This document shows, piece after piece, positions 2,804 through 49,264 of a stretch of DNA of 64,000 nucleotides (position 1 is the stretch's first letter; the number at the start of each line of letters is the position of its first letter). The stretch lies in NCBI GenBank assembly GCA_017591395.1, contig WEDG01004197.1, positions 1-64,000 of the forward strand, read 5' to 3'. Position numbers and translations under genes: made by a program. Origin of the DNA: Schistocephalus solidus (lineage: Eukaryota; Platyhelminthes; Cestoda; Diphyllobothriidea; Diphyllobothriidae). The notes under the pieces were generated by a model. That model saw nothing but the letters and a program-made list of their open reading frames with translations. It was not told the origin of the DNA and made no database searches.

Positions 2804-3665
2804 GCATGGATTACCAAACGAAATTAAGTCCCGTTCGCATATTCTGTGTTGAGACATCACCTGAGCAGGGATATGGGTTACATGTGGAGGAGGCGAATGA
2901 CTAATACGTCCAATGACAGTGCAACAAATGGCCGGGTACATATCATGACTACATTTAACATGGATGATGAAATCACGGCCAGTAACGACTAAGACACGGA
3001 CTAGTTAGCTATCATTGCATCAATTACGACCCCCACCGGTGATCACGAGATGTGCTATTTATTGTACTCATGTGATCGCGTGGTCACTACTCACCTTGTT
3101 CATCCTGCGCCATTTTCTGCAAGTGTCTCTGAGGCTTGGTTCGAGAGAGAATACGATGCGCCAGCCCTATAGGTTTCACGTTCCAGTGATCACTTCTTCT
3201 TATTCTGATCATTATCACGAGGAACGTTAACGATGGATGGGTCTTCGAAACATCAAATGATAAGTCACACTTACATTAAGATTGTAACAGGCCAGACGAA
3301 GCAGCTGTTTCACGGTCCTTACCGAGCATCAGTATGCCATACTTCAACGGATTGAGGTGGAAATACATGAAAGGAAGTCGAGGTAGCGACTTGGTTGTGG
3401 TTAGAAACCTACACATGTAGTAAACTTTCTATTTTGCTAGAGCAAATTTCTGCGAGTCCAACTTTCCAAACCATAAACAAAGCCATCGAAACTACAGCCC
3501 TATTCTTAAGCTCACCAGGACTATACTGAAGCCCGAGTGTAATTCTCTGTTACTCTGTGTTTTATACTTCGCTTTTTAACTTCTGTGTCATTGCATCCTT
3601 CTGGCTATACTACTTCTGCTGTATTGCTTTTTCCCTAAAATGCGTATTTTCAAGGAGCATTAATC
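2804..3665 (+). repeat. Unnamed repeat B, copy 2, with internal insertion
   Basis: Homologous to 1,950-2,420. The first about 490 bases match, then 3,292-3,560 is extra sequence not found in copy 1, and the match resumes with the TATACTTCGCTT...TACTACTTCTGCTGTATTG tail. The leading short ATG frame (2,806-2,904) is retained. It sits immediately downstream of a TATA-like box. Confidence 0.55.
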
Positions 3666-3728
3666 GATAATATCAAAAATAAATACTGATGCAGAATACT
3701 CAGTCAAAAGGCGCATACTTCCGATGCA

Positions 3729-3992
3729 TTATGTGTAGGAAAAATGTGAATGTTCGCAATCTCCCAGGTAGAAAATACTGGTCTCAGGCATCACTAGTTT
3801 CTGGTTCACTACAGCACCAAAAATAGCTCCCCACGTCGTATCTGTTACTTTCACGACCACAAAGACATATAGGGCATGGCGATCATTAAGGCTGATCATT
3901 ACATCCATTACTTGATACTTGATAGATGTGAGCCCATTGAAATGCAGGGTAGAGGATTTCGACTGTATACCATTCGCTTCTTGTAAATGCAT
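3729..3992 (-). CDS. Hypothetical 87-codon ORF (weak)
   Basis: An uninterrupted minus-strand frame encodes a mixed-composition 87-residue peptide with a hydrophobic middle (ALYVFVVVKV). It does not match a family I recognise, has no recognisable start context, and its 3' end overlaps a short piece of the promoter-block repeat (3,726-3,770). It could be an exon or a chance frame. Confidence 0.2.
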   Translation of the reverse strand: MHLQEANGIQSKSSTLHFNGLTSIKYQVMDVMISLNDRHALYVFVVVKVTDTTWGAIFGAVVNQKLVMPETSIFYLGDCEHSHFSYT

Positions 3993-4177: not shown

Positions 4178-5245
<1,068 letters not shown>

Positions 5246-10899: not shown

Positions 10900-11900
10900 T
10901 TTTCACCGAAATCTCAAGCGTGACACAACAATCTACCTACTGTCAGACCTCACGGTTATAATCGAGAACATTTTCTAGAGACACATTTTGACTTGTGGTT
11001 CATGAGAACTCCCAGACAGGTATCACATCAGATTTTCCAGACAAACAGAAGTGGTATTCAGGAGATATGCCCAAATCACTCATGAAGATGATGTCTTGTT
11101 TTTTTTCCCTTTGTGTGATTCTATTTAGCCTTCAATTAGAATTGAGAACTCAGTTTCGGTGTCATGTGAACTGTAAAGCCATCAGTGGGATGAAATGATC
11201 TCAGAAGGAAACCATTTTTGAAGCCACAGCATTCCAATACGTGTCACACATCCCGAAAGAATGAAGGAGACATGTTGTAACTATTAAATCCTTAAAACAA
11301 CCGGTAAGGTATCCCATTTGGTTCACCAGATGCCAGTCAATGGCAAGATGCACATAAGCCCGATTCTATGGTAACCATGATTTCTTCTGAAATTTCTACT
11401 GGAGAAGATAGATTTATATGTGCAAAACATTTGCGTCTAAGGAGCATTAACAGAATTACGGAGAAATAATTGGGAGTTGACCAGGAGTGGTATAAAGAAG
11501 AGTATTAAACCATAAGTATCCTAGGAAATGCGGAGTGAACAATAAAATTATCAAACAATTTGCATATCATGTGTATTTGAAAGGATGCTCATCAGACGGG
11601 CGTATTACTGAAGCGCACTTGGAAAACTTCTGTAGGTGAGCCGTGGGCATATGATTCGTGATAGAACGATCGGGGCGATATCAGTGGTTTGCACTTGACC
11701 AAGTTACATACAGGTAATTGAAGGCAAGATGGTCAATGGACGAAATTCAACGTATTTCTTAGGGACAGAATCGACCCAAGAAATTGACACCACATCAGAC
11801 TAAGTGGAAACCATCCATAGAAATGCAAAAGATATACATATCCACTCTTAAATTTATTTTTGATGATAAGACATTTGTGGTTTCACGTTCATGGATACTA
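10900..11900. other. Unassigned region
   Basis: About 1 kb of A/T-rich sequence with no supported gene and no match to other parts of the window. It may contain the ancient 5' portion of the adjoining PLE, but I could not read PLE motifs before about 11,950. Confidence 0.3.
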
Positions 11901-11904
11901 ATGC

Positions 11905-12596
11905 TTATAAATGACTGGCCCTAAAAGGTTACCATCATCCTTGTGGGCACTCCGCTTCGGCCAATCGTGCTCTTAAATGTACTCTAAATTTCGGACTGAT
12001 AATGCGGCTGTTTCAACGTCTCAATTTTCTTACCTCTCATTCGGATACCACAGTCAGCTCCTCAGCACAATTCTTAGAGAAACCTAAAGGTGTTAGCTTC
12101 TTGCCAAGTGATGTCATGCTATCTTTTGTCGCGATGCAATATTTTAATTCGATTCCGTAGGATCTGGCAGTCGATCCTATCCAATTAACCCTGGTAGATC
12201 AATACCATGAAACATAGAATCATCTTCAAGAGGACCAAATCCTCCAACTTCAGAAGTTCTGTCTGAAGAAATACTTTAAATTTGACGTAACAATCTGCGA
12301 GCAGATGAAAGGCTTGCGAAATGGTTCGCCAATTTCAGGATTCTTAGCCGAGTCGGTCTTACAACGGTTGGATTCACTGCTCTTACGACTACACAGACCG
12401 AAATTCTGGTCTCGGTATGTGGAGGATATTTTTTGTTTATATCAAATGGTATTAGTTGCTGACATTCAAAATACTTATCAACGCCATCTTCACGGATAAT
12501 CCATTTACGATGGAAGAAAATGACCACCTGATCTTTCTGGATTTCATGGTTTGTCGAAAAGATGATAGTTGTCCTTAAGCCAGAAAAATTCACAAT
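11905..12596 (+). pseudogene. PLE family 1 reverse transcriptase fragment, copy 2
   Basis: Penelope-type RT pieces are readable in order: a conserved upstream block with NAAVSTSQFSY or the alternative frame LFQRLNFLTSHSDTTVSSS (about 12,010-12,070), FLEKPKGVSFLPSDVM, a FNSIP block followed by a stop where active elements have a coding triplet, YFKFDVTICEQMKGLRNG, SPISGFLAESVLQRL, and RYVEDIF near 12,415 in place of YVDD. It begins at TATAAATGACTGGCCC and ends at GCCAGAAAAATT, almost the same two points as the copy at 14,995-15,683. It cannot encode an active RT. Confidence 0.85.
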
Positions 12597-12885: not shown

Positions 12886-13639
12886 TGCTCATTTGTACGG
12901 CATTTGGCTTGCTACTCAGTACGGAGTAACGATAGCGGTAACAGTGACTAGTTTTCAGTTTTTTAGTGCGGGTGATGCCACCGCTTTTTAAAACCATATT
13001 GTTTGTATGCCGGAGTGTCATATGCATCTTTGAAAACTAGAAAAAGTATTCAAATAATATATGTGGCATGATTGTAATAAATAACGTATGTCTGGATTAG
13101 GTGCCATATTAATTTGTGTTGCAATCGTCGATTTAAAACACAAAAAACGTCAAATTAACTTAATTATTCTTGAAAATCTGTTGTGACGTCGCCGTCTCTT
13201 AGCAATGGTGTAATTTACTCTTGAAGAAGACCACGGTCATTTTAAACTTTCTCCCTGGAAATTGCTGACGTTTGTTTAAGGACCACTTTTCTAACTGTAT
13301 TTAGTTTGCTTTTAAACCAGGCGCCTGCTCTCCCTTTTTGATTTGTTGGGTTGGTTTTTGTTCACATGGTTTGCTCACATTACTGTCGTGTGATATAGCT
13401 GAGAGCTTACGTCGACCTTTAGCAGGCTGTATGGCAGCCGCCGTTTGCTGCTGAACGTGCTTACATGTGGCCTTTGTAGACTGGTTTTCCAAAAAGTACT
13501 GTTGTACATGGTTTCGCTGCACTACTCTGAGTCTGCCAGCCTTTAGTCTGTGCTCCTGATAAGTCTAAAAATTTTGCAAGGACTTTGTTCTCTGTCGCTT
13601 CGCGTTTTACTGGAGGTTGTGTTCAGTGATGTTTCTTTC

Positions 13640-14270
13640 TATCAGGGGTAAAGAGGTATTAGTTAAGTGTAGCACCACAGAAATAGCATTTGGTCGCTCA
13701 ATTTGTCTCGTACAGCTATTTAATGCTCAAGTGGCCAACCCTATACCGGTACCCAACTCTCACCTGAGGCTCCTCGAATTTGGGTTCTTCCCAGCGGCCA
13801 CATCCCGGGCAAACATCACGACCAGCGGGCTAAACCACATGAGGGTCTCCGGTGTTATGTGTGCGTCAACACTTAGTATGTCTGACTACCGAACTTCCCA
13901 TCTCCCCCCTCCTCTCAAAAGTCCTACAGTGGGGGCGACAGCAACCCCGTAGGTGGCCCAGTCTAGCTTGGGTCTTTCTCCAACTAAAACAAAACCATGA
14001 CCAATAGTGGAGATCGGCAGCCGTCTGGGATGTCCGAGCAGCCATATTTAGGGACAGCACTGGTTGCCTCCTCGCGGAGGAAGAGGCTTGAAAAGGTACC
14101 CTTAACAAATGCTGGTTATCACGTCTTCTGCAGCCGGCCGCGGCCTGCAGATCGCAAAATACGTGGTTGTTAAATTCAAACAAACAAAAATTTCCCCGTC
14201 CCCATCCCCCTCGCCATACCCTCCAGGCTGCCCGGGTGAGTCCTCTTACACTAGCCTTGGTATAAAACCA
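13640..14270 (+). mobile_element. 5' region of the RTE-like zinc-finger LINE, truncated copy
   Basis: Aligns over about 600 bases with 35,930-36,510, the leader of the LINE described at 35,930-40,430. Shared landmarks include TAGCATTT.GTCGCTC, CCCAACTCTCA, AAAAGTCCTAC.GTGGGGGCGACAGC and TGCAGCCGGCCGCG. Copy 1 stops at about 14,270 just before the endonuclease coding region begins in the longer copy, so no protein part is present. Confidence 0.75.
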
Positions 14271-14361
14271 GTGGCAATTTTAGCCTATTTAAGTATACTC
14301 TTGTTAATTATTAACGCACTTTTTCTACTTAGAACACCAATATGCCGTCTACTAGTTCACG

Positions 14362-14799
14362 ATGTCCCGCAAGCGACTCACCAAAAGACGCAAGGTTGCA
14401 GCCTCCCCACTATCCTTGAGTAACAGATTAATGGAAGGGGACCTTTCTAGCGTACGAGAGACTTCGCAGCCCTCTGTATATATTGTCAACTCTAAAATCT
14501 ATTTGGAAAATCTTGAATATCTTGATCATCTGATTGCTAAAGCCTACACCTCGTCCTGCCATAATCGATTGTCATCTGATGACATAGCAGATTTTTTGCT
14601 TCAAGGAACTATAACCAATACCTCCTACACAGTTATCCAGCAGGCTTTTCACATAACTGAGATAATCATCTCCGAAACCGAAGAACAGATAAAACGCAAG
14701 CATAATTGTATGCTGCGTAATATTTCAAGTGTAATATCTGCTTTCGATTGGGCGCGTTTGTTTCTGGCAAGCTGTGGCTTGGGATTCAGAGTCGCGTAA
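14362..14799 (+). CDS. Hypothetical 145-residue protein
   Basis: An open frame starts at an ATG preceded by an in-frame stop and runs 145 codons. The predicted protein has a basic N-terminus (MSRKRLTKRRKV), a possible helical middle and no signal peptide. I do not recognise a domain. A plausible 3' splice site (pyrimidine-rich, TTTTTCTACTTAG) lies at about 14,320-14,332, so it could be an exon of a host gene; alternatively it is the 5' portion of a mobile element, since RTE-like leader DNA precedes it and a PLE fragment follows 200 bases later. Composition and codon texture look more protein-like than neighbouring chance frames. Confidence 0.35.
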   Translation: MSRKRLTKRRKVAASPLSLSNRLMEGDLSSVRETSQPSVYIVNSKIYLENLEYLDHLIAKAYTSSCHNRLSSDDIADFLLQGTITNTSYTVIQQAFHITEIIISETEEQIKRKHNCMLRNISSVISAFDWARLFLASCGLGFRVA

Positions 14800-14994
14800 A
14801 CTACACGAATGCGCTGGCTCAGTCTTAATGCCCCCATATTTGTCACGCTATTTTCTCAAGAAAGTAGATTAGTAGATAATGTTGTCAAAATGGCATTCCT
14901 CAGTTTCCCCTGGCCTAACCCCAATGCAGGGAAAAGCTGAAAAATGTTAAATTTTCCACAATTATTGTTGCTAATTATTGTTGATACTTTTGCG

Positions 14995-15683
14995 TATAAA
15001 TGACTGGCCCTAAAAGGTAACCATCATCATTGAGGGCTCTCCGCTCCGGCCAATTGTGCTCTTAAATGTACTCTAAATTTCGGACTGATAATGCGGCTGT
15101 TTCAACGTCTCAATTTTCTTACCACTCATTCGGATACCACAGTCAGCTCCTCAGCACAATTCTTAGAGAAACCTAAAGGTGTTAGCTTCTTGCCAAGTGA
15201 CGTCATGCTATCTTTTGTCGCGATGCAATATTTTAATTCGATTCCGTAGGATCTGGCAGTCGATCCTATCCAATTAATCCTGGTAGATCAATACCATGAA
15301 ACATAGAATCGTCTTCAAGAGGACCAAATCCTCCAACTTCAGAAGTTCTGTCTGAAGAAATACTTTAAATTTGACGTAACAATCTGCGAGCAGATGAAAG
15401 GCTTGCGAAATGGTTCGCCAATTTCAGGATTCTTAGCCGAGTCGGTCTTACAACGGTTGGATTCACTGCTCTGACGACTACACAGACCGAAATTCTGGTC
15501 TCGGTATGTGGAGGATATTTTTTTGTTTATATCAAATGGTATTAGTTGCTGACATTCAAAATACTTATCAACGCCATCTTCCCGGACAATCCATTTACGA
15601 TGGAAGAAAACGACCACCTGATCTTTCTGGATTTCATGGTTTGTCGAAAAGATGATAGTTGTCCTTAGGCCAGAAAAATTGAA
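14995..15683 (+). pseudogene. PLE family 1 reverse transcriptase fragment, copy 3
   Basis: Nearly identical to 11,905-12,596 by eye across its full length, including the same in-frame stop in the FNSIP block and the same YVED in place of YVDD. One visible difference is an extra T in the T-run near 15,520. Sharing the lesions means a dead copy was duplicated (or mobilised in trans) rather than two active insertions decaying independently. Its right end merges at GCCAGAAAAATTG into the promoter block of the secreted-peptide gene. Confidence 0.85.
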
Positions 15684-16027
15684 TGTTCACAACCTCCCAG
15701 GAATTTAATAATCGTTTCAGCTAAAACTGACATGCATATATTAACAAGTATGATTGATAGAATACTTATAAATAGAAAGCATTAGTCGCAAAATAATAAT
15801 AAGTGAAATTGTTTTGCTTTTATATTGCAATGAAACATAATCTTGTGGATGTCATCTTGGAATAAAGAAGAAGAGTTAAAAACAGAGCAAATTCGGTTTA
15901 ATTCTATCTTTTTTTGCCAGCAAGCACATCGCTTGGGTACAATCGTGTCATTCGGCCCCTGAGATGTCATTGGTTGGCCTCGTAATGAATCAGCTAAGTC
16001 TGAACATTATTTGGGCTTATAAAAGAA
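15672..16027 (+). promoter_or_regulatory. Promoter region of secreted-peptide gene (duplicated block, copy 2)
   Basis: This stretch matches 2,447-2,800 throughout. It contains a CCATTGG/CCAAT-like motif in the region TCATTGGTTGG (about 15,967) and ends in GGGCTTATAAAAGAAG, with TATAAAA at 16,018-16,024. Transcription would be expected about 25-30 bases downstream, around 16,045-16,055, which leaves a short 5' UTR before the ATG at 16,081. The function is inferred from position and motif. Confidence 0.6.
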
Positions 16028-16080
16028 GCTCGTGTTATGCTCAGGGCATGTCTAAGATCCTTCAGCCTACCACCCGGAAG

Positions 16081-16634
16081 ATGCGCGTTTTCCTATTGCT
16101 TGCGTTCCTGCTCGTGGTCTCCACCGTATCCGAAGCCTGCGCTACGGGCAAAACTGGTTATTCATCCATCAAAAGCAGCGCCGACTACCAAAAACCCAAA
16201 CCTCCGAAGTCGACTGGTGAGTCCTACAAGATTATTTAAAACTGTCATTTGAGATATTTACAGCACCATGCATATCAGTGCAACGGCTGTAGCGTTACTT
16301 GTACTTACTTGGACATGTAATATTTTGGCGTTTTTTTGCGCACTTTTCACTGACAATATCTTCAAGGCCTTCCACTCAAGCCAAATATTACTTCAGGTTT
16401 ATTTATTTTTAGCCCCTAAGGAGCTAGTGAATCCTTTGGACATAAAGATTTGGTAAAGCGATATATGCAGCCCATAGGTTCGCTTTTCAGTTATTCTTCA
16501 TAAAATCATATGATTAATTTAAGTGTGAAATCCAAATAACATTGATATTACTTTCCTTAGATATGTGGAAAACATTTTGCATGAACACCTGCGACATCCG
16601 AGGATATTCCTGTGAAATGCACAATAAAGTCTAA
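16081..16634 (+). CDS. Small secreted cysteine-containing peptide, two exons (69 aa)
   Basis: Exon 1 (16,081-16,216) encodes a classic signal peptide: Met-Arg, a hydrophobic core VFLLLAFLLVV and a small-residue cleavage site after SEA at residue 19. A Lys/Pro-rich stretch (KPKPPKST) follows. The exon ends in phase 1 at a strong donor G|GTGAGT. Exon 2 (16,561-16,634) follows a pyrimidine-rich acceptor CTTTCCTTAG, completes the codon and adds a tail with three cysteines (C52, C56, C63). With C20 at the start of the mature peptide there are four cysteines, enough for two disulfides. A TATA box lies 57 bases upstream of the ATG, and an AATAAA sits inside the last codons. An in-frame upstream ATG at 16,048 would add 11 residues before the signal but probably lies at or upstream of the transcription start. 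I do not recognise the family. The architecture resembles short secreted-effector genes of parasitic flatworms; that role is inference. Confidence 0.7.
16217..16560 (+). other. Intron of the secreted-peptide gene
   Basis: A 344-base intron with GTGAGT donor and TTAG acceptor, phase 1. An internal acceptor-like site (ATTTATTTTTAG, about 16,400-16,411) followed by a GT could define a tiny exon of 14 bases, but that would break the reading frame, so I do not call it. Confidence 0.6.
16624..16629 (+). terminator. AATAAA polyadenylation signal overlapping the coding end
   Basis: The hexamer AATAAA forms codons 67-68 (Asn-Lys) of the secreted peptide, three bases before the TAA stop triplet at 16,632-16,634. 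If used, the 3' UTR would be only about 10-20 bases. Confidence 0.55.
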
Positions 16635-16639
16635 GTTGG

Positions 16640-17295
16640 ATGACTCGGCCTTTCGTTCTCTCCCATATCACTAACGATGCAGTGTTTGCCCTCCTTAATA
16701 ACGATATTCTCTTATTTGAACTAGGGGTTCTGAGTCCGGAAAAAACCCAAATGGTCCTTGGAGATGCACATGTCTATATCATCATTCAAACCGGTCTGGG
16801 TAGCTTGTGAAGCATCTAAGGTTACCTTATGGGCTACGGTCGTCACAGGGTTGCTTTAGCACTTAAAAGGACAGCGTTGGAAGTGCTTTCGTTTCATCCG
16901 TGTCTTTTTATGTTGTCTGCGGAACCGACTATCTCCTTATTGGCAGCATTTTCTGAAAGCTTTTAGTGCTACGAATACATTATTTGAGTTAGGGTTGACT
17001 TTTCAACTGAGAAGATGGTACTATTAATCATAGCAGAAGTGTCCTTACTCAAATCGGATGGGAACGTTTACACAGTTATACGTCCACCACTTAGTTGTTG
17101 ATAACGCTGTAGAGACTGTTCCATCGTCTATGACGCGCACCAACAGCCAGTCTTGGTGGAAATTTGTTATTTATGTGTTTCAGTGAATTGACCGGGCCAC
17201 CTGAAGTCCAGCCTGATTTGTCAGATCGCAGGGTCTTTAAGAAATTAAACCACTCAGTTATTTACAAAGCTGAAAATATATTTTTTCACACTAAA
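16640..17295. other. Unassigned spacer
   Basis: About 650 bases after the peptide gene. No ORF, repeat match or motif was identified. Confidence 0.3.
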
Positions 17296-17299
17296 ATTG

Positions 17300-18640
17300 T
17301 GAAAATCAAATAACTGAAAACGGGGGATGGAAACTTCACGATCGTCCATCTTCGTGATCAGCCACGTCTCAGTTATGGAAATGATATCTGGTGAAGTTTG
17401 GCACACGTATATATTAAGCTCGTCTTATTTAGGGAGTAGGCTTTGGACATTGGTATGTAAACATTTTAGTTTATTTGTGTGTTTTAAGCCGGCTATGTTG
17501 CTGCCTTCTTCAATTTAGGCAGTTGGACCGACATTCACACAGGATGTGTCCATGTTCAAGACATTTTGCATATTTCCGCAGTAGAACTGGATTTTATGTA
17601 GATTGTTGCATTTGATTAGTTGCTCGACCGTGAGACTTTTGTCAGAATGACGGGCGTCCTCCACAGAAGGGGTTTATGTACTCGATCAATCACTCCGTTC
17701 CTTTTTACAAGTCATTATCTCCCTGTTCTTTCAAGTTCTCCAATTCCGCTTTTAGCGCCCTCCATTTCATTTTCTCTTGTCGGAGAAGTCCGGTTGAAAA
17801 AAATACCTCTGTGACCGGGGACTGCCCCTGCTGTTCGCTCGATTAGAAGGTCTCTCTGTAGTTTATTTTCCAAAATTACCTTTAAAGGCCTTGATTTATT
17901 TCTTAAAAGGTTTGTGTTATCTTTACTATTTAATCGGAAAAGTTTAAAAACCCTTATTGTTTCATCCTCTCATATTATTTCACTCATACACGCTTGCAAG
18001 GCCATGATGTCATCATTTATTCTTTACCTGGGAATTTCGTTGGTTGATTCATGAAGCCCATGGGCGATTATGCATTGTTACCTGTCCACAGCACCTCTAT
18101 CCAGGGAGTTCTGTTTAATAATTTGCCTGGCTGATGTTAGGGGTTCCCCAATACTGGCTTCAAATTCTTTGGCTTGGGGAGGTATTACTGCTGTGGGCCC
18201 ACTTTGTATCATCCATTCTGTGTGCAAAAGCTCCTCTTTATTTGCCTCTGATGAAGCGCGCGTGGCCTAGAGACTATTTCCGTTAACGTTATTTGTGGTG
18301 TTATGTTAAGCTATTTCATTGGTATATTTTGATCAATTTTATTTTGTACCTTGACTGGTATCTTAGATACCACATTGCATATATTTGGGGATTAGTTGTG
18401 TAGGTTGCCTCGTGCTCTTCTCCGTGTTATCCTATGCGTTGATGCTGGCAATCGATCCTCTGCTAACAGCATGCAACTCTCCACGGCCTCCCTTTTTCGC
18501 AGAAATGATAATTCACAACCATACATGGTAACCTCCCAAGCATATTCTCAGTCATCGTATGCATTCTACTATATTTCTTTAATTATTTGGCGGTTTTACT
18601 AAACGTCTTGTTCATTAAAAGTCACTTACAGGACGAAAAT
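17300..18640 (-). pseudogene. CR1-like LINE, family C, copy 1 (5' half only)
   Basis: Aligns in order with 34,560-35,800, for example CATCTTCGTG.TCA.CCA, GATAATATCTGGTGAA.TTTGGCA and GGCGTCCTCCACAGAAGGGG. In the other copy this region translates on the minus strand as the start of an endonuclease. Here the frames are broken. The downstream endonuclease body and RT are absent. Similarity fades near 18,460, so the right boundary is approximate. Confidence 0.7.
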
Positions 18641-18649
18641 TTATTACAT

Positions 18650-19835
18650 ATATAGGACTGCTAGCCAGCTATTCTTCTCGTTTTCTTACAGTAAAATATA
18701 TTGTTTTTATTTCTGGCTGCGTAATTAAATCTACTGACAACCATATATATTCCGACTCATTTTCCTTTGATCTCTCATAATCTCCTTTTCGATGTTCAAT
18801 TGCAGTTGCTAATAACATCCTGAGTATTCTTCATCGTTTTAACATGTGTTTTACGAACAGTGTTCGAGACTGTTATGAAATCCATATCTTCTTTTTATTT
18901 CATTAATTTCAAACATAATTTAGGATAATTCGCCCTTTTTATAGAATCGGTGCTTTTGATCAAATTCTGAAATATATTGCTTATTCACTCAATGTTCCCT
19001 CCGTCAGAGAATACTTGCAGCATTCGGCCTCTTGCACTAGAAACTAGTAAAGAATTCGATGTCAAATTGATGACTTCTTTACTTCAGGAGCGTTGGTGGT
19101 TTTCAGCAACTTCAAAAGGTAATAATTCATTTAACTTTCAATAGATTTTTCAATACGCACGGTCAAACGATATACGAAGAAGTGAAACCAATAGACTACG
19201 AACTGTTTGTGCGAATAGATTCGGGCATTTCTTATAAGGGAAAATCATTTCTTTCATTTCAAAATAACCACATACGATCAAATAAAATTTCTTCAGTGTT
19301 ATACATTTTGGTGTACTTTAAATGTTCTGCAGCATTGCCATTTGCTTTAAAATCACTCTTTAACAATCTTCTTACAATGATTTAATATGTGTTTCTTTTT
19401 ATGGACGAATTTCAATGGGTTATCGATCCATTACATTGAGACTTTCAGTTACAAGAATGCTAAATTTCTAAAAAAATATAACAATTCCCGTTGTAAGTAA
19501 GAACGTATGACATTAAAAAGGTCATTATCAGCTTATCATTCGTGTCTGTGCAAACTATTACGTCTGACTCATTCTTACTATGCACGAAAGTCATCGATGG
19601 TTGCATATAAGTGTAATATCTAACGGCCAAATTTGTGCTAACCAAATTCCTATTTATAAATTACTTCCCATTTTGGGCATAGGTCCCGCCACTAAGTCAA
19701 CTTACCATAATATGTTAGCTTTTATTTTAATTTTCCATTATAGTTGGCATCTTAATTCATTACAAAAAGGACAATTCTGCCTTTGACTGTGCACACGTTC
19801 ATCTCAGTTATTTGCTCAACGACATCATTAAGTCC
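18650..19835. other. Unassigned A/T-rich region
   Basis: About 1.2 kb, strongly A/T-rich, with only short frames (60-68 codons) on both strands. Nothing is supported as a gene. It directly precedes the duplicated segment. Confidence 0.3.
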
Positions 19836-19839
19836 AGTT

Positions 19840-22800
19840 ATTATTAAGCACCAGTAACTGTTTTGATTTATATAAAGCAAACAGAAGTCCATTTTCTACT
19901 CTTTAAATTCATATTGCAGTTTCTATGGAACTTCTACAGAATCAGAAAATTTGTAGAAAGAAGCGGCGCATGTAGTGCGTAGCAGGTATCCGCACATTTT
20001 CATCCTCCGATGCATCCCTTCGGCCATTTGAATAACAGAGTGGGATTTCTCAGAACGCGTGTGTTTTTGCTTGGTACGAATTCATATGTTCATTCACGTG
20101 AACCGTCCTTTTCAATTTTTACAACTTGACTTCCACTCTGTATATTACCGGTTACTCGCATGAGTTTGCGGAACACTTGTTTGGAGTTTCCTAAATAAAT
20201 GTAACGAGATATAAATTCTAGCGCATGTCAGTCTGCATTTTGAAGTAATTAAAAAATGAATAGAAACTAACTGTAAGGTAATTCCAACTTCATATTGTTT
20301 ATCTGGTGTGCCTTGCGAAAGAGTCGTTATCCCTTAACAAAGAATTATATTCTAAAATGGGCAACGTATTTGAATAAGGAAGATTCACCTCGAAAAACGT
20401 TAATCTATTCAATAGAAAACACATTAAAACGTTAACCATATGCCACAGACAAATCGTACAACTCAAAAGTGTTCATTTCTGCTGGGTAACCTTGATATCA
20501 TTGTCAAATTCTAATATCCATGAATCAGAATTATCCTTCCAAGGGTTAATAATTCTTGTAAATTGCGCACCCTGCACGGCTGTTGACAAACAAAATTCAT
20601 GTCAGTAGGAAAGTAAACCATGTTCTGCTTATGAGAATAACAAAGAGAATGCTCAAGTTCATACGTACCTGGGAACCACACGTTCTCTTTCACCATCACT
20701 ACAGCAATTGCAGGCAAGTTTGAAATTTCAGGAGTAAAAACAAGTGCTGCGGGAACGTGAAAAGGCTTTGCAATTATTCGGACACTGCGTTTGCTGTCAA
20801 AGTAAAGCAACGAATCCCGTCTATAATTTTTCATTGCTAGTATTATATGCAACACGGAACACTTAATATATACACTTTAAAATATAATACTTTCTTAGGT
20901 GTAGGCGCAAATAAAGTGCTATACAATGTATATAAGATATACTTCAGTTGAAAGATAACCGTTTTTTCGAGTTTTTCCATAAAAGCAGATAAACACTTAC
21001 AAATATGGGCTACTTGTACATGCCAACTGAATTTTTTCATGATATTAGTCACAAAAAAGAGCACGAAGAAGAAAGCTCACGTCTTTGGGTTCAATAAGCT
21101 GCCCACAAATTTAACAGCAATATGAAAAAGCAATTGGTGCCTTCAAACACTCACGTGGATAAAATTGAATTACATGACTGCGGAGCTGCACATGGATTTT
21201 CCAATGTTCCCCTTACCACGGTCCATTCCACAGAAACCTATTTGAAGCAAAAATGTACGCATTTCAAAGGACTTTCAGTTAAACAATATCAGAACAAACG
21301 TTTGCGTTTGACATACATTAATCGAAACAGGAACGTGAATGACAAAATTCGAAGTCCGAGTTAATCTTGACTGGCTGACGTTTGGAATCGAAGCTATATT
21401 AGATCAGTATACATAAATGATGACTGGTAAATTACCCCAATTATCAGATGCAAAGGCAACACAAATTGACCAGATTACGAAGAACATTGACCTTTTGGTT
21501 TCCTAATGTAATAATTGCAAAATTTATCTGGTACCATCTTCGGAATATTTTTTTGAGCTGCAAATTTCGTAGGTGTTTAGTGCATCCTAACTGATGGTTA
21601 TACGTTGATAAAATTTTACGCTCATTGAAAGTCTTATAATTATATTCATCTTCAATCTCTTTCCAGTGGTAGTTGCCCTGCAAAAGTGCTATCGAAGAGA
21701 TTGGCTGAAAGAAAGCTTGTAATAAATGGTGGTGTAACGAATGATAGTTTGTTTCTATGTAGTAGGTGGCTCTAGACATACGGTAAGCTAAAGACTGTTA
21801 AGAATGTTTATGGGTATTTCTGCCTATCAGATGAATCTGTACTTGCGTGCTTTGAAGGATGATACTTCAAACTATGGTGAGACTGAAAAAGCGTATCTTG
21901 CCATCCTTGACATGGGTAGACTTGCTCATTATAATCTCATACGCGCAAAATCAGGAAAGAAAAACGAACGCCGAAAAATATATCGGCATCACTTGGGCGT
22001 CGCATTTTCTATATGTGAATTTTGAATTTAAAAAAAGGATGGTGTTCTTTGATTAATTAGGGTTTTAATATTACTTATTTATGAAAATTGAAGGCATACT
22101 TTAACGTTATCTAATTAAATCATTATATTTCTTTCAACCAATTATAAGTGAAGGAATTAAGTATCTTTTGTCTTTTCACAGCGTGGAGTATTTTGGTGCA
22201 CACACCGCTAAAATATTGCCGTTGGGCAAAGATTGATTGTAAAAATTGGCAGCGAATTGCATAAAACTGCAATTTCCTTTGACATCATAAGACTAAATTT
22301 ACTTCTTTCGACAAAAATAAATTTTTGAGATACGATAAAGAAAGCATCAGGCAGTTTTTATGCTCAGGTTTGCTCTGCTACCTCCACTTGGTTAGAAGAT
22401 TGTCCTTGCATCCATAACGAACGTTTAACCAATGTTACTTATTCAATCCACACATGGGTATTCTCTTATATTATAAAAATTCCCCCGACACCTCTGTGTT
22501 CAGGGTACACACATAGCAGCTCTGATAGAGCATTGAAACACTCGTATCGATTTGGTTTCTGATTTTATCCTAAGTGTGTCATCAGATGTAACTATCCGGA
22601 CGGGTACTAAGCATCACTTCGTAAGGCTAGAAAATAAACTTTTTTAAAATAGTAAAAAAACCAACCGAGAGCAGATTAGAACGAAGAACACCAAACGTTA
22701 GCGATTAACTCCTTAAAAACCATAAAAGCATGACGGTATTAGTCAAATAAGCAGATGAAAAACGATGAAAATGTAATAGCTTTCTCGAAAGCATGATCAG
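19840..22800. repeat. Duplicated genomic segment, copy A
   Basis: A chain of collinear matches links this region to 49,430-54,090 in the same orientation: TATATAAAGCA.ACAGAAGTC (19,871 and 49,447), the four exons described separately, the ACTCACGTGGATAAAATT stretch (21,150 and 50,579), AACCAATCTCTTC, then TGGGTATTCTC.TATATTAT (about 22,456 and 53,716) and the GGGTACTAAG stretch. Divergence is substantial, so the duplication is old. Copy B has been enlarged by an S2 array. Confidence 0.75.
20090..20820 (-). pseudogene. Unrecognised multi-exon gene, paralogue P1 (last four exons; frame damaged)
   Basis: Four minus-strand exons are defined by comparison with 49,596-50,395. They are 20,669-20,820 (donor CCCAG|GTACGT), 20,491-20,579 (89 bases; acceptor GTCAACAG, donor AAG|GTTACC), 20,272-20,351 (80 bases; acceptor ATTTTAG, donor GTTAGT) and 20,090-20,190 (acceptor TTTAG, stop TGA). 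Conserved peptide blocks include SKRS, NLPAIAVVM, VWFPG and RVTGN. Aligned third-position differences around RVTG are mainly silent, which supports past coding. In exon 3 the frame entering from exon 2 meets TAA after five codons and is one base out at the end. More exons probably lie further right. No domain was recognised and no signal peptide seen in this part. Confidence 0.5.
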
Positions 22801-24480
22801 AATAAAAAAACGAATACATTTCTCTAAAATAAACATCGACATGACTATTATTTTATTCAGCCAGCATATGCTAGAGGAAGTGGCATGAATTCAAGCTCAA
22901 CGTTTTGCACTTCACCTGATATTGCATTCTTCAAAGATTTAATGATATTCTTCGCAGAATTTTTAATTTCAACTCAATTGAACCTGGAATTACCATCCTG
23001 AAGGCTGGAGTTAGATGGTAATGCTTTTCAAAGTTAGCGTTTATGTAATGCCTACCTTCTTCTGGGACTGATGGCTTAATGTTTTTCTAATGTAAAACTA
23101 TTTTTAGTATCAATTCACTTCTAAATAGCAAGTGAAATTTGACCTTTCTTAACATCAATAGTTCAATCTAGGCGTGATTTATCACAATTGTGCGTGTAAT
23201 ATATCCTGTGTTTCAAGCAAGGCTGATTAAAAGGAGACTATGTTCAACCCCATAGATTAACTCAAAATATTTAACCACTTAGAAGACCAATATTTTCTCA
23301 AATAGCAAAGCCAGTAGGGAAAAGCGGCAAATCTTCTTCTAAAACAATTTACAAGCGTTCCAATTTAAATTTTCAATTAGACGTTTATACTGATATATGC
23401 GAGGCGTCTTTTAAAACTGATTGACTTTCTAGACGTTATGAGGGTTCACTGGTTGATACCGGCCTCAGATTCTTCTGAAAAATGTGAATGATACTTTCTT
23501 AGTAAAGTATATTCCTCTCTATTCACTCCATTTCTTACACATTTACGTAGTACTGGGCGTTGTTGTCCACTCATGTGGAGTGGTTTCTGAGAAAGGATTG
23601 TCATGCATTTATAGCACGGTCATCATTATATAGCATTTGGAAAGCAGATGATTTATTTTTTGTTGCAGGGTTAAATGTCAACTTAGTTTTGCCGCCTTAT
23701 GCGTGTGTACCCATTTACTGTCGTCGGGACATTGGAGAAAGGAAAGTGCAGTTCAGTATTAAATATTTATTTAATCCTTTACCAGTGCCATGGTCACTAC
23801 GTGGGACACATCCTGTACATGGTCAGTATGAAATTCCTGAATTTGGAGTTTCTACAAAATTACATGCTCAGTCGCCTTTTTATGTGGCTGCTCAGTAGAT
23901 TCGGTAAATACTCCCTTTTATCCAGTCATCAGTAGTTTGCGCTCTTGAAGAAAGCACTGTTCTGCTCACATTAAGTGAACGTCCACAAGTATTGTTTTAT
24001 CCGTTCATCAAACTCTTTTGCGAAAGGCTATGGTCCCGTTGGTTGCGCTGCAAGATGAAAGCTCAAGTCTTTCCTCCTCATCGTTTCTGCGTGCTAAGCC
24101 TGTCGTATCCTGAGTAATGTCCCAATTTTTCCGACATTTATGATTCTTCTATCATTGCACACATTTTTTAACGACCTCACGCGTTTGATGCCAATTTAGT
24201 GCATCTATATATCTCAAGAAGGAAACCTGCTATGTGCTATCAGCATGTATAAAGTTGCGCATGATGTCTTCTTCGATGTTTCACAGTTTTCCTCGGTTCT
24301 GTAATCTGTACATAATTTCTAGCTTTTTTGAACGTTTTAATTATAAAATTATTCGCACATGTTCTTTCGTTTACGCAATGCTGTTTCAAACGTTAGTATT
24401 AGGACCATTGATTCACTTCTTATTAACAACTGAATTTGAACTTTATCGAGAAAATTGTAATGTTATTTAGGTATGATTCA
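22800..24480. other. Unassigned A/T-rich region
   Basis: No repeat in the window matches this stretch. A 112-codon plus-strand frame (23,560-23,898) encodes a plausible-looking sequence with four cysteines (FNPLPVPWSLRGTHPVHGQ portion), but no motif, partner exon or paralogue supports it. Confidence 0.3.
23560..23898 (+). CDS. Hypothetical 112-codon ORF (weak)
   Basis: The longest frame in this interval, starting with ATG and ending in TAG. The predicted product is mixed in composition and not low-complexity. A pyrimidine-rich acceptor-like site (TTTTTTGTTGCAG) occurs inside it near 23,656-23,668, so the true feature could be an internal exon beginning there. I recognise no family. Confidence 0.2.
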   Translation: MLSTHVEWFLRKDCHAFIARSSLYSIWKADDLFFVAGLNVNLVLPPYACVPIYCRRDIGERKVQFSIKYLFNPLPVPWSLRGTHPVHGQYEIPEFGVSTKLHAQSPFYVAAQ

Positions 24481-24499
24481 TCATTATAGTGCAAGAATA

Positions 24500-25330
24500 T
24501 CTTCCATATTTTGCCGGGTTCAGTCGAGTGAGCTGCGGCCTAAATACAATCTTCTTCTTTTACACCATTGCTTTGTGCCCGGACATTCGTCTCACGAGTT
24601 ATCTCACGATTTCTTAAACCTAGTCGCTTCGTCCATAACTGCACCAGATCCGGTAAACGACTAAGGACGTTTCTTGCCGGGGCCGTGATGGATGCTTTCG
24701 GCATGTGTGCAATGCAAACTCCAAGAGGTGTGGGAAGGCGGCTTGCGTCTACCAAGACATTTTCCACGTGCGGTTGACCTCGTCAAAAATTATGGTTGGT
24801 TGATTTTGTTATCTAGCGCCTCTAGGCACTGGTTTAAAAAGTCGTCCGAGTAGACATTCGCTCTCAGTACCTGTTGAAGATATGATCCTTTGGCAACCTT
24901 ACCTTCCGTTTAACCCCCCTGCCTATCATCGTGCCGGTAAAGCACCCTTACGCAAATGCGTATGTGACTGATCGGTTGGTTGCTGCGAAAGATCAGCACT
25001 TGAATCCTGCGTGTCGCCTTCATGCACAATTTGTATTTTAGGGCACCGCAAACTCTGCGGCAAACAAGGAAAATCAAGCAGGTTAGATAGTGGTTTCCTT
25101 TCTACCCAATCGTGAATTGCATGTCACATCAGATGGCATTAAGACGTTGTTTTATCACTTCAATTGACAACAAAGCTTTCGTCCACAGAGTGGAAACAGG
25201 GTTTTCTCAATGATGTCGGAAATCAATGGGCATTTACCCTTGCATGACTGCCTCGGATTTGAGTCTGGAAATCGGCGAACCTGTAGGCCTGTCTGGCACC
25301 CTTTCGTAGAAAGTTCTGTCGAAAGCGATA
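24500..25330 (-). pseudogene. PLE family 1 fragment on the minus strand (RT palm/thumb and linker)
   Basis: Reading the minus strand from about 25,330 down gives Penelope-like blocks in order across frameshifts: a QRLNAI..DMQFTIG region, LVCRRVCGALKYKLCMKATR, SNQPISHIRICVRVLYR near 24,960, YLQQVLRANVYSDDFLNQCL near 24,840, and the linker LPTPLGVCIAHMPKA near 24,725. These align with the same positions of the plus-strand family 1 copies (NHPISPKRSC, for example). The GIY-YIG domain that normally follows is not readable. A 75-codon fragment (24,540-24,767) covers the linker part. Confidence 0.65.
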
Positions 25331-25399
25331 ACCAGAATTTTTATAATTTCCTTGCATGCAAGCAGCAGAAAGATACAATGTCGAATTCCGAAAAAAACC

Positions 25400-27190
25400 G
25401 ATGAGCTGAGTAAATGTTGAATCTGTTAATCATTAAGTATCAGTAATATAGCACACTATGCCAAGTAGGCATTAGATAAGGGACAACGAGGACTAAGCAA
25501 AATCACCTAGCCATTATGTACGAAGGTTCGTTTAACGACTTCAGTGGCACGACGAATTACTGCAATGACAATTATGATGCGAATACAGCCTGCAATGGCT
25601 GAACTGAATATCATTCTCTGCACGTGTGATGCAGTTCGAGACACGATGTATATACAACCGCATTTTTTATAACAGTATTTGCTTTTGTGGAATTTGGATA
25701 ACTGTTGTCTACAATCCTGCAAAAGCCGAATTATGCACTTTCTTTGGTGTTGCATAAATTAAAGCTTAAATTGGATAGTCCATTTTCCCTATTTGTTGTA
25801 TGTAATAACCTCATGGTAATTCTGGCAATTTGAAGGTAGAAAATGGGAACATTTTAAACAATATTTTTACTTATTAGACTTAATAAATACTAATGAGCTT
25901 TTTTAATTATTTTTGTCCATTCAATGAAAAATGAACAATAATTAGTTTTTTTTAGATTTCCTCTGTTGTCGAGAGCAAGCTGTCTACCTATGGACCCTAT
26001 TCAGCCGCAACAGCTTGGCCTCATCTTTTAAATAACGTGCGAGAGGGCAAAATTGTTGTTCCTTTTTAAATTGTGGACTGTATAAACTTATGTGTCTAAT
26101 TAAAAGCGACTTAAAACTCTCTATTGGTTTCTGTAGAGTCTAGTCCAAGGGTAGCATAGGAGTAGCAATCTAAATGCTTTCGCATTTTTATGTAATATAA
26201 GCTATTAATTTTTTTCCAACGTGTCCATGACGACGTTGAATAAATGAGATATGTGTGCCGAGACAAGTTGGCACACTTTTCCTTCCTTCATATATTTTGT
26301 TACCGAAGAGAACTTAAAATGTAATGCTTATATTATCATTAAAGTCATTTCTTATTTCGAATAAATTTTTAACAATTACTGACCAATAATAATTGTCGTA
26401 TTTATGAAACCGCATCTGTCATCGTGGCATTTGTTGAAGGTCATGGGAATTCAACCGATGTCAAAATATTCTTTTGCGTTTCATGTCACTCATATCCTCC
26501 AAAAATGTAAAGTTAACTCTTAGGCTACTTGCCATTAGCTACTCTTTTATGAGCTTGAATTTTTTGGTTATCTTATTGGTTATCGTATGGTATGGAAAGA
26601 TGAGCATGTCCCAAATTGGAGGAAATAGCCCCACACTTATTAATATAAGTAAAATTACACAGTCGAAGTGTATGTGTGCCGATCACGGTTGCTGCGAGGA
26701 AGCTCCATAGATAATAATAATTTTTTTCCGTAATTAAGCCGAGCAATTCTTTTTATTTAGAACTTCCTAAATTGCTTCTTTGCTGACGAGTCTCTGTATT
26801 CATCGCTTAGTATTATATGTTAATAAACTTTCGTGTAAATGGCATCGGACGAAATGACAAGGGACAAATAGAACCAGCCTGTATCTGGTGTCATATGTCA
26901 ACGCAATGTGTTTGACCATTTGACCAATCACAGAATGTTGTATTAGGCACTGTTTAAATATAACGTTTTTGATACATCTACCATTTAACTGAATATGAAC
27001 TGGTAGACCGGATTCAACATTTTCATGATAAGGTTCTTATGTTTCTAAAGAACTTCAATGTATTATATAATGTATATAAAGAGGTATAGCCGAAGATGCT
27101 GACCACTGGTTTTTAAAAATTATGAAAAGGTTAGGTGATCTTTGAGTAAGAGGATTTCCTTGTTTAACATTTCACCTCATCATAAGAGAT
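25400..27190. other. Unassigned A/T-rich region
   Basis: No gene is supported. The stretch 26,480-26,710 matches 63,600-63,830 (TCACT.ATATC, CATTAGCTAC.C.TTTATG, GTAT.TGTGT.CCGA and GGTTGCTGCGAG), so it may belong to the same old duplication as the 20/50-kb segments. The reading frames are not conserved between the two. Confidence 0.35.
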
Positions 27191-27199
27191 CGACAATTG

Positions 27200-27535
27200 G
27201 GGGGAAATACATCTGTCAAGTAAGTCCTGCATGCTCAATCCAGATAGGCCTACTGCCTACACGTTTAAATGGCACTTGGCGCCTTACCTTCGTTGACACG
27301 TAATGAAGCTGCACCTGCAAATGTCCAAGCTAAACGTCCGCTCTGAATTCTTCACGCAACGGCTAGTAAAGCTTTGGAATGATCTCTCGAAATCAGTCGT
27401 GAAGTCGACATCCCTTCAGTTTTTCACGAATCGTCTGAGTAATTATGTGTATCCCTTATTTTGCGCCGATGATCTTGACCCTAAGGGATGCCACTTCCAT
27501 TTCAGACCATTGTATTGTTTAGATAGTAAATAGTA
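27200..27535 (+). pseudogene. CR1-like LINE, family B, 3' fragment
   Basis: The frame from 27,303 reads MSKLNVRSEFFTQRLVKLWN and matches the C-terminal end of the minus-strand family B element (46,546-46,788, MSKLNLRSEFFTQRVIQQCN). Only the last part of ORF2 and a piece of 3' UTR remain, a typical 5'-truncated insertion. Confidence 0.75.
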
Positions 27536-27539
27536 CGTA

Positions 27540-28240
27540 AAGCATGATTATGATAAGGAAGCATGTAAAAATACGGTTGTCAAGGGTAAGCTTTCCCCCT
27601 CACCAAATAAACTTAAAACTGCTGCCGTTCTCAGAAGACACTGTTGCCAAAAGGCGTGGATGCTTGTTTGTTTGAATAGCATGGCAAAGTTATTCAGACG
27701 TCCTTTTGCTGCCTTAAGCTTACCAGGGTTGGGAAAAAGCCAGCCCCGAATAATTATCGTATTAGGTCGCTGTCTATTTGTTGGAATTAGCAAGTCATAC
27801 CCAAGGTCGGACTGTCATGCAAACTGATCGGGGCGGCCCTCATCATCGTACCACTACTGACTTGCGAATAACTGCTTAGTGTTTATATTTTCCATACTTT
27901 TTATTGGCAAGTATCAGTTTATTATAACTCTCACCATTTCCTTCATGTCAGATTCCAAATGTACATATTAAGAGAGACGCATACTGTTAGTTTCCCATGT
28001 GATTTCTAATCGTCAGTCGGAAAAAGAGACAAAATCCTGCTTCTAGTCTCCTGAACAAAATGTATTTAAGCTTCGTTAGCTGGCATCCATTTGAGTTTGA
28101 AGTATTTGAAAGATTTGGAAACAGGAGTTTTATTTTAAATTTATTTTGAATATTTATTTAATTATCCGAAGAAAGGACAGTGAAATTAAAGAATGGGAAG
28201 TACAAACATAAGATAAGGTCTTAATTTAATTTCAGGAGAG
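27540..28240. other. Unassigned spacer
   Basis: An 81-codon minus-strand frame (27,548-27,793) is present without a recognisable motif. Nothing else was identified in these 700 bases. Confidence 0.3.
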
Positions 28241-30630: not shown

Positions 30631-30634
30631 GACA

Positions 30635-31480
30635 GTGCCTTGCCATTGCAAACCAAATATCATTTCTAAAAAAAATCAAAATTACTTCTTAATAAAACTT
30701 CTTGAAACAAATATTTTTAATCTAGTTATCGACATGTGCCTAGAAAATAAGCCCTTGAGCAACTCGCAATATTGTTTTCTACCTGGGAGATCATGCGAAG
30801 TGTGTCAATTAGTTTTTATTTACCTCGTCACTTCCCTTCATAATGAGCAGCATTCAGTGGTTCCAAACTACTTTGACCTGAGCAAAGCCTTTGACAAGGT
30901 ACCACACAGATGTCTTCTGGTGAAACTGGATGCCCTCGGCATCTGGCCTCCTCTCCTTGACTTCATTGGCTCCTACTTGTCTTACCACAAGCAGAATGTC
31001 TTAGTTGGTAATAGCTATTCGACACCACAGCCGATACCGAGTGGCATTTTTCAAGGCACGCTTCTAGGTCCCGTGCTCTTATTCTGTACATAAACGATAT
31101 GTCATCTTTACTCAAAAATTCACTAAATTTCATTTACGCTGACGACCTTAAGTGCATTTATTCATTTTCTCAATGCACTGCAAATAGTTGCGTTGATAAA
31201 ACCAACACTGATTGTTTTATGCTATCACTTTGGAGCTCTAGTTTGCAGATGGAATTTTCTGCATCCAAGAGTACTCTTATGTGTTTTGGCCCCACCAAGC
31301 TTCCTGAACCACCAGTATTTCTGGGTTAAAAGACTGGACGTCTGTTTCTGCTTCCTGTTTCGCGTTAACTCTAGCACAAATCTCCCAAGAAGTAAATCTC
31401 TCACTCCGGTAGATCGACCCTTTGCCATTTGTTATTCCTACATGATCATTTCACCACCCCTTAGCTCTACAACTAACCCT
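30635..31480 (+). pseudogene. Non-LTR reverse transcriptase fragment, family D, copy 2
   Basis: The frame 30,635-31,093 shows LSNSQYCFLPGRSCEVCQL, then NYFDLSKAFDKVPHRCLLVK (motif A, catalytic Asp present) and PSGIFQGTLLGPVL (motif B). After a frameshift at about 31,090, INDMSSLLKNS and FIYADDLKCIYSF (motif C, YADD intact) follow at 31,130-31,165, then a SLQMEFSASKSTLM block. Endonuclease and N-terminal parts are missing. It is the better-preserved of the two family D copies. Confidence 0.8.
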
Positions 31481-31539: not shown

Positions 31540-33680
31540 GGTTATCATAAACATGTGTTTCATGTCCCAGTTGGTAGTCAGTGATATGACTGGCTGAATG
31601 AAGGCAGAATAAGCCCGAAACAGACTGTATCACTCTACTCATATTTTTGTTGTCTATGCTCTCTGCATTTAAAACTTTACCTACTTCGGCCTTGTAAGTG
31701 GTTGCCTGCTCGTGATCTTTGCCACCCATACGTAGCTTGTTTACTTCGGGAGTCCAACAGGTTGGTGTGCGCCTATTACTTTTTGAATATATACCCGTTC
31801 AGAGGCATCAGAGAATGACCGTGGCGAGGCACTGATTAACCTTGGTTCTATGAAGTGCTTATGACCCATCTGCCAGACCAAGTGTGTGGACTGTCTGCGC
31901 CGTACTCGAGCGCATGTTTGAGTTTCCAGTTCCAGCTGGTAGTCAGAGTTATGTTTGGCTGAATAAAGGCATAATAAGCCCGTAAAAGACTGTATCACTC
32001 TACCCATATTTTTGTCATCACTCCTATCTACAACTATAACTTGACCGACTTCGGCCTGGTAAGTGGTTGCCTGTTTGTGACCTTTGCCACCCATACGGAG
32101 CTTTTTTTCTTCGGAATGCCAACAGGTCGGTGTGCGCTTATTCCTAATTTAAAACAAACCCGATCTGCAGCGACAGATACTGACGTTGGCGAGGCACTGA
32201 TGAACTTAGGTTCAATGAATTGCTTACGACCCATCTGATAGACCCTGTTTGTTGCTTGTCTGATCCGCGTTGGAACGCATGTTTGCGTTTCAAGTCCGAG
32301 CTGGTAGTCAGGGTTATTATTGTTTGAATGAAGGCAGAATAAGCCCGAAAACGACTTTATAAATATACCCATATAGCCTGTCATGTCTACTCACTGCAAT
32401 TATAATTTGACTGACTTTGGCCTGGTAATTGGTTGCCTGCTCGTGACCTTTGCCACCCATACGAAGCTTGTTTTCTTTGGGAAGTCAATATATAGGTTTG
32501 CTTCTATTCCTGTTTGACTAGATTCCCGATCTGCAGCGACAAAGAATGACGGTGGCTTGGCACTGATGAACTTCGGTTCGATGAAGGGCTTATGACCTAT
32601 TTGAAAAAATCAGGTATGTGGACTGTCTGCGCCGTGTTGGAATGCATAATTTTATTTCGAGTCCCAGCTGTTAGTCAGGGTAATGATTGGCTGAATGAAG
32701 GCAGAATAAGCCCGAAACGTAATGTATTGATCTGCCCATATTTTCCTGCCGTGCTTCTTACAGCAATAATATCTTGATCGACTTCAACTTGGTAATTTTT
32801 TTGCCTGTTCGTGATCTTTGCCACCCATACGGAGCTTTATTACTTCGGGAAGCCAAATGATCGATGTGCGCCTATTCCTGTTTTATTAAAAACCCGATCT
32901 GCAGCGACAGGGAATGACAGGTGGCGATGCACTGATGAACTTCGGTTTGATGAAATGCTTATGACCCATCCGATTGACCGAGTGTGTAGACTGTCTGCGC
33001 CGTGTTCCAGTTCATGTTTGTGTTTCAACACTTAGATTTTAGTCAGATTATGATTTGATGAATGAAGGCAGAATAAGTATGAAACAAACTCTATCAATCT
33101 ACCCATTTTTTTGACGTCTCTCCTCTCTGCAATTATAACTTGACTGAATTTGGCCTGGTAATTGGTTGCCTGTTCGAGACCATTGCCACCCAACGGAAGC
33201 TTGTTAGCTTCAGTTAGGCAATATATCGGTGAGCGCCTATACCAGTTTGACAAAATAGCCGGTCTGCATCGACAGAGACTTGGCACTGATGAACGTCTGT
33301 TAGATGAAGTGCATATGAACCATCTGATAGGCATAGTGTGTTGACTGTCTGCGCCGTGCTCGAGTGCATGTTTGTGTTTTCAGTCCTAACAGACTGTATC
33401 AATCAACCCATATTTTTTTGTCGTCTCTCCTCTCTTCACATATAACTTGGCCTAATCCGGCCTGGCAATTGGTTGACTGCTCGCGACCTTTGCCACCCAT
33501 AATAAGCTTGGTTGCTTCAGGAAGCCGACAGATCGGTTTGCGCCTATTCCTGTTTCAATAAATACCCGATCTGCAGCCACAGAGAATGACAGATGGTGAG
33601 GAACTGATTAACCTTGGCTTGCTGAAGTGCGTATGTCCCATCCGATATACCAAGTGTGTGAACTTTCTGGGCCGTGCTCG
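31540..33680. repeat. Satellite S1 array, left part
   Basis: Tandem head-to-tail copies of a unit of about 366 bp. The landmark GGTAGTCAG (or a variant) recurs at about 31,573, 31,938, 32,303, 32,670 and 33,039, with a partly deleted unit at about 33,380. Other unit landmarks are GAATGAAGGCAGAATAAGCCCGAAA (split here: GAATGAAGGCAGAATAAG), CTTTGCCACCCATACGGAGC and GCACTGATGAACTT. The array stops abruptly at GCCGTGCTC (33,672-33,680), mid-unit. Confidence 0.9.
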
Positions 33681-48385: not shown

Positions 48386-49264
48386 ATTGTGGCTTGTGTT
48401 GTAAGTTGACGCTCAAAAGGCAGTTCTAGAATTTCGTATTTCCTTGCGGCATATATTTCGTTGCGCTTTATATTCGGCAAGTGATGTTGAATCTTGAAGA
48501 TGCTCGTACTTTTCCACAATCTTTGTTTCTTCTTCATGGCCCTTTTATCGGCTGGTTGACATATGGAGGTCTGGCACATGGTCTTATTACTTTCATTGGG
48601 CAATGGACTTCAATTAAGCGCTCTACAGTCCCCTGGATATGCTGCCATAATTCATTTGTATCGTTCGTACTGAGTAACCAGTTTTCTGCGGAAGCGGTAC
48701 GTCTCATTTCTTCAAAATCGGCTTTCCAAATATTTCTGCGCCTCTTTATTTGCAATTTTGGAGACAATAGGTAACACACGCAGGTAAAAAGCAACGTGGT
48801 CGCTTAACCCTAGTGGCGGTTGTGAGTTCACTTCCCTTATGATCCCCTCTTCTTTACTAAAAACGAGATCTAGACAGTTTGATCTTTGGCCTTCTCGCAG
48901 TTGGGTTGTGAAGTCTATGTGTTGAATGAGATATTCGTCCAAAGAAAACTGAAGTAGTTGATAATTGAAAGGTGCTGCTGCGGCCTTTACTCCAGGCCTC
49001 ATCCAATCGATGCCAGGAGCGTTGAAATCACCCAGGAGTAATAGATTTTTCCTGTTTACAGATAACCGTCAGTGAACTAAGCAGTTCTACGTCGTCACTT
49101 TCGCTGGAGCCGGGAGGCCGATAAACAACGCATATATTGAGTGCCGGATGTTGCCTTATCTTAATTTTGCATGAAATTATTTCATATCGTCGTAGGGTTA
49201 TGTCTGCAATTTCCCTCTGACAACAGGAAATTTCATTGGCTACGGTTGCAGTTTAGTTCAAGAA

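Follow-up and report, generated by a model that had tools for sequence, protein, structure and literature searches.

Does the stretch at positions 16081-16634 of this 64,000-nucleotide tapeworm sequence (the whole of which is called the window here) hold a gene for a small secreted peptide, and what can be said of the product and of the origin of its promoter? A first-pass annotation had proposed such a gene there. When the sequence was read directly, its coordinates proved exact, letter by letter, and so did the individual elements that it named, all of which lie on the plus strand. The TATA box, TATAAAAG, occupies 16018-16025, with its first base 63 nt 5' of the ATG at 16081, and from the usual spacing of TATA boxes, transcription would be expected to start at about 16043-16049. 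Coding exon 1 (16081-16216) consists of 45 codons plus one base, ends in phase 1, and encodes a signal-peptide-like opening followed by a Lys/Pro-rich stretch. It is joined through a phase-1 intron of 344 nt (16217-16560), which begins with the donor GTGAGT at 16217 and ends with the acceptor CTTTCCTTAG just 5' of 16561; the 3' end of the intron reads ATTACTTTCCTTAG, the last base being 16560. Coding exon 2 (16561-16634), which is placed with less certainty than exon 1, is short and cysteine bearing as proposed, with 24 codons that read DMWKTFCMNTCDIRGYSCEMHNKV, three of them for cysteine, and a TAA stop at 16632-16634. The joined reading frame has no internal stop, and the spliced product is 69 residues long: MRVFLLLAFLLVVSTVSEACATGKTGYSSIKSSADYQKPKPPKSTDMWKTFCMNTCDIRGYSCEMHNKV.

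An AATAAA poly(A) signal at 16623-16628 is the only AATAAA or ATTAAA in 16561-17000. Since it sits inside the last codons, the transcript would have only a very short 3' untranslated region. An alternative in-frame ATG at 16048-16050, which would prepend 11 residues (MSKILQPTTRK), falls at, or only a few bases from, the position where transcription is expected to begin. Base composition sets exon 1 (GC content, 0.529) apart from the intron (0.346), the whole window having a value of 0.422; exon 2 (0.378) is close to the intron, unlike exon 1. At third codon positions, the GC content is 0.622 for exon 1 and 0.586 for the whole coding sequence, the latter within the range of four long open reading frames (ORFs) of the window (0.473 to 0.615), three of which carry a reverse transcriptase domain (RVT_1).

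The N terminus of the predicted product was analyzed with hydrophobicity and (−3, −1) rules rather than with SignalP. A hydrophobic run spans residues 3 to 13 and is followed by permissible cleavage sites, and the predicted signal peptide, MRVFLLLAFLLVVSTVSEA (16081-16137), would be cut after Ala19 or alternatively after Ala21, both of which were picked by eye and obey the (−3, −1) rule. By the same rule-based test, the N-terminal signal is accompanied by no further transmembrane segment, and the mature peptide has a GRAVY value of −0.87. The first-pass annotation had described a mature product of about 50 residues with four cysteines. This holds only for a cut after Ala19, which leaves cysteines at mature positions 1, 33, 37, and 44; with cleavage after Ala21, the chain has 48 residues, and three of the cysteines remain. 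The first permissible cut in our scan script was the one after Thr15, and four cysteines were counted from there. With either of the Ala cuts, the mature peptide is 48 to 50 residues long (5.5 to 5.6 kDa) and basic, with a pI of about 9. The Lys/Pro-rich stretch described earlier is present in the exon 1 product, the peptide contains three tyrosines, and its cysteines are spaced C-x3-C-x6-C plus one distant cysteine, with no CC pair.

The elements are all in phase with one another, and together with the GC contrast between exon 1 and the intron and the joint-occurrence tests described below, they suggest that the locus is probably a real, lineage-restricted tapeworm gene, present in one copy in the window, that encodes a small secreted peptide. 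From the sequence, we infer transcription, splicing to the proposed exon 2, secretion, disulfide formation, and the site of action, as follows. A TATA-driven transcript would start near 16045, undergo a single phase-1 splice, and carry a very short 3' end, and the 69-residue precursor would enter the endoplasmic reticulum through its signal peptide and be cut after Ala19 or Ala21. The mature chain would then combine a flexible, Lys/Pro-rich N-terminal arm with a C-terminal C-x3-C-x6-C region, around which the cysteines suggest one or two disulfide bonds; the fourth cysteine would lie at the mature N terminus if the cut follows Ala19. Because of the signal, the product may be exported as a basic peptide, most likely from tegument or gland cells, and would act at the worm's surface or beyond it. 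A role at the host interface is speculation, guided by the roles that orphan secreted peptides often have in parasites.

The peptide could also be secreted without being directed at the host, for example as an internal structural or signaling peptide of eggshell or gland origin. This alternative, which concerns function only, is possible but doubtful: the product is basic and Lys/Pro rich with three tyrosines and holds no sequence pointer to a host target, but it is not similar to any Pfam family, and its composition is not rich in Gly and Tyr as that of the known fluke eggshell proteins is. Other known flatworm products resemble the candidate in part. The schistosome micro-exon genes encode small secreted flatworm peptides that, like the candidate, have no wider homology. 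These genes are made of many tiny symmetric exons, whereas the candidate model consists of a 136-nt and a 74-nt coding exon separated by one phase-1 intron. The genes for cestode antigen B and related hydrophobic ligand-binding proteins, which are helical and of about 8 kDa, are likewise short, have two exons, and encode secreted products; they are split near the signal peptide, whereas the intron of the candidate lies in codon 46.

Orphan secreted proteins abound in the diphyllobothriidean tapeworms. In spargana of Spirometra erinacei, expressed sequence tags yielded 39 secreted candidates, about half of which were novel (PMC4262225), and a Spirometra genome paper gives 50 orphans among 146 transcribed and translated secreted proteins (PMC12249497). 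Sparganum proliferum and Spirometra have several orphan secreted families, namely OG0000083 (with P-ISF), OG0003096, OG0010117, OG0011363, and OG0011373, which, like the candidate, are diphyllobothriidean, of unknown function, and mostly equipped with signal peptides (PMC8166898). These families are expanded and include genes strongly upregulated in proliferating worms (PMC8166898), whereas the candidate has one copy in the window. The protein word search given below, which requires three shared 5-residue words, returned no match to P-ISF or the other expanded families. Schistocephalus solidus secretes orphan and knottin-like proteins; one of them, the UPF0506-like, flatworm-only A0A183TDP7, is, like the candidate, a cysteine-bearing secreted diphyllobothriidean protein (PMC8400842). 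Its motif, as printed, begins C-x6-C-x7-CC-x4-C-x9-C-x2-C and thus holds more cysteines than the C-x3-C-x6-C plus distant cysteine of the candidate, which has no CC pair and does not show the UPF0506-like knottin pattern (PMC8400842). Against this background, a further orphan of this type is no surprise and is to be expected, and the candidate is ordinary in kind. If expressed, it would enlarge the set of orphan secreted peptides in a parasite group in which a sizable part of the secretome lacks a known function, and it would suggest that gene prediction may miss short two-exon secreted genes.

The first-pass annotation had called the gene previously uncharacterised and its family unknown, and the database searches yielded no homologue or family. 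No protein sharing three exact 5-residue words with the 69-residue product was found among about 5.8 billion proteins, some from Spirometra and Sparganum included; this word search reaches close relatives only, and the gene sets behind it may miss short genes. The read-through frame of exon 1, which was included to catch longer gene models, gave no match in the same three-word search either. The product matched no Pfam family at E values of up to 10 and no PDB sequence, and of the 23 pattern matches in a scan of the viral contigs of IMG/VR, none was confirmed. A literature search by words, not by sequence, returned no such peptide by name. The absence of homologues is weak evidence, since the searches would detect close relatives only or were run on collections in which one would not expect a tapeworm gene. 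Within the window, blastn found no second copy of the gene, and when the full peptide was searched by tblastn, no match outside the gene had an E value below 0.28 among the matches listed.

Exon 1 might be real and the gene might continue otherwise, through another acceptor, through further exons, or through exon 2 plus others, in which case the mature peptide would differ. To gauge the 3' half, exon 1 was kept fixed and the downstream DNA was replaced by simulated sequence or by real-DNA placements. An exon of 20 to 60 residues with at least three cysteines then arose by chance in 16.7% of 5,000 simulated and 10.7% of 1,239 real-DNA placements, so that a three-cysteine exon 2 as such is to be expected in 11 to 17% of cases; when a poly(A) signal was required in addition, such an in-phase exon 2 arose in 1.9% and 2.2%, respectively. 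Four acceptors passed the filter (16413, 16491, 16561, and 16725), and those at 16413 and 16725 equal that at 16561 in pyrimidine fraction (0.73), but only 16561 combines the cysteines with the poly(A) signal. As for intron size, mean introns are 2.4 to 2.9 kb in the Spirometra and Sparganum gene sets (PMC12249497), and the next exon could therefore lie beyond the scanned region; on the other hand, 344 nt fits the median intron of 418 bp in the 2014 Spirometra assembly (PMC4265353). A repeat similar to 34574-35553, moreover, starts at 17309, which also speaks against a different continuation. Weighing these data, we consider a different 3' structure rather unlikely.

The upstream sequence revealed a feature absent from the first-pass annotation: the promoter is duplicated, and the other copy lacks the gene. 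The promoter-bearing segment (15672-16029, plus strand) is identical in 335 of 358 aligned columns to 2449-2805 on the same strand, which lies 13 kb away. Both copies retain the TATA box; their similarity breaks off four bases 3' of it, before the point where transcription is expected to start. Past 2805, the second copy runs into an unrelated repeat, also found at 1957-2203, and the gene body is single copy in the window. On its upstream side, the promoter segment abuts another repeat (14983-15680, plus strand), which recurs at 11894-12590 (97% identity) and partly at 1263-1670 (95%), and the sequences that meet at this junction have AGAAAAATT in common. Either the other locus may have lost the gene from a gene-bearing copy, or the gene may have acquired a duplicated promoter.

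The duplication bears on whether the gene is newborn or decaying, that is, a young gene with a ready-made promoter or a remnant, an explanation that overlaps with the preferred one. The 23 differences in 358 columns between the two segments, the TATA box in both, the end of the match so soon after it, and the gene body without a second copy in the window all favor it. The copy at 2449 may, however, have lost the gene through a break after the TATA box, and decay in particular is at odds with a proposed frame free of internal stops. We regard a newborn or decaying gene as improbable, and the specific version, in which a young tapeworm-specific gene came into being, or was rewired, by capturing the duplicated TATA-bearing segment, as very improbable. 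If the promoter duplication proves to be genome-wide, it would offer a testable case for how new secreted genes gain promoters.

The repeats around the second promoter copy have an order of their own. Positions 1957-2476 and 2805-3766 form an interrupted repeat pair, 82 to 89% identical in blocks, that alternates with the promoter-segment copies in the pattern X-B-X-b. The repeat after the second copy contains a small ORF (MDYQ...) whose resemblance to the mature peptide is probably due to chance. The score of this ORF, when the bases 5' of its ATG were included, was reached by 1 of 5,000 shuffled peptides, and that of the sister copy by 163 of 5,000; for the repeat block proper, read in six frames, the figure was 60 of 2,000, and for the sister block, in which the best frame was a different one, 325 of 2,000. 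Between the copies, this ORF has eight nonsynonymous versus three synonymous codon changes.

We then return to the preferred reading, a real tapeworm gene, and to how often such an arrangement arises at random. Both strands were scanned for a full gene grammar: a signal ORF preceded at 30 to 100 nt by a TATA box, a donor matching GTRAGT, an acceptor that follows a pyrimidine tract, a short second exon that encodes three or more cysteines, and a poly(A) signal. The window has 10 signal ORFs, of which only the candidate at 16081 shows all the remaining features, and the full grammar appeared in none of 100 third-order Markov shuffles, in which signal ORFs averaged 5.55 per shuffle and a two-exon model turned up in three shuffles, never with a TATA box. 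In a larger series of 1,500 Markov shuffles, signal ORFs of at least 40 residues were combined with a TATA box in 69 and with a donor in 64; the combination of all three, found once in the window, occurred in none. All of these criteria were set post hoc, after the candidate had been seen, and signal peptides were recognized by rules instead of a trained predictor. That an open frame arose by chance in intergenic DNA rich in repeats and was singled out by a pattern-seeking reader is quite improbable: the post hoc criteria, the repetitive neighborhood, the lack of a homologue in the searches run, and the abundance of signal-like ORFs of at least 40 residues (five in the window against a shuffle mean of 2.4, with 152 of 1,500 shuffles reaching at least five) speak for it, but the 0-of-1,500 result and the GC contrast between exon 1 and the intron speak against it. 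The 5' half of the gene stands strongly above chance and the 3' half moderately. The two-exon structure described as complete at first therefore holds well for exon 1 with its promoter and only moderately for exon 2, for which rival acceptors of the same pyrimidine fraction exist.

The gene is surrounded by repeats and retroelement pieces. A parasitic flatworm had been suggested as the setting, and reverse transcriptase matches support this and make a diphyllobothriidean tapeworm the most likely source of the window. For the ORF at 47564-48412 (minus strand), the best 13 of 195 matches in total, of which 120 were listed, are from the diphyllobothriideans Sparganum proliferum or Spirometra erinaceieuropaei, at 47 to 74% identity; two S. 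solidus proteins (42% and 51%) stand lower among the listed matches, amid those of other animals. In Pfam searches of the window outside 13001-27999, which covered eight ORFs only, RVT_1 was found in four: 47564-48412 (minus strand), 59259-59861, 38429-38953, and 30632-31093. These pieces probably belong to LINE-like elements. The six frames of 13001-27999, with stops read as X and no positive control, gave no Pfam match at E values of up to 0.01, and Rfam gave no match in the window at the gathering score. A scan for bacterial-type promoters and terminators, irrelevant to a tapeworm, counted one and zero versus shuffle means of 2.5 and 0.6.

Several further repeats were observed. At 4180-4588, a long microsatellite of ACT trinucleotides, about 410 bp in length, produces spurious long ORFs in several frames. 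Three tandem copies of a repeat with a unit of ~370 bp occupy 51809-52918 and have inverted relatives at 41086-41628 and 57692-57905. Two degenerate tandem repeat arrays, at 31554-33386 and 42040-45829, have a unit of about 365 to 369 bp and lie about 9 kb apart.
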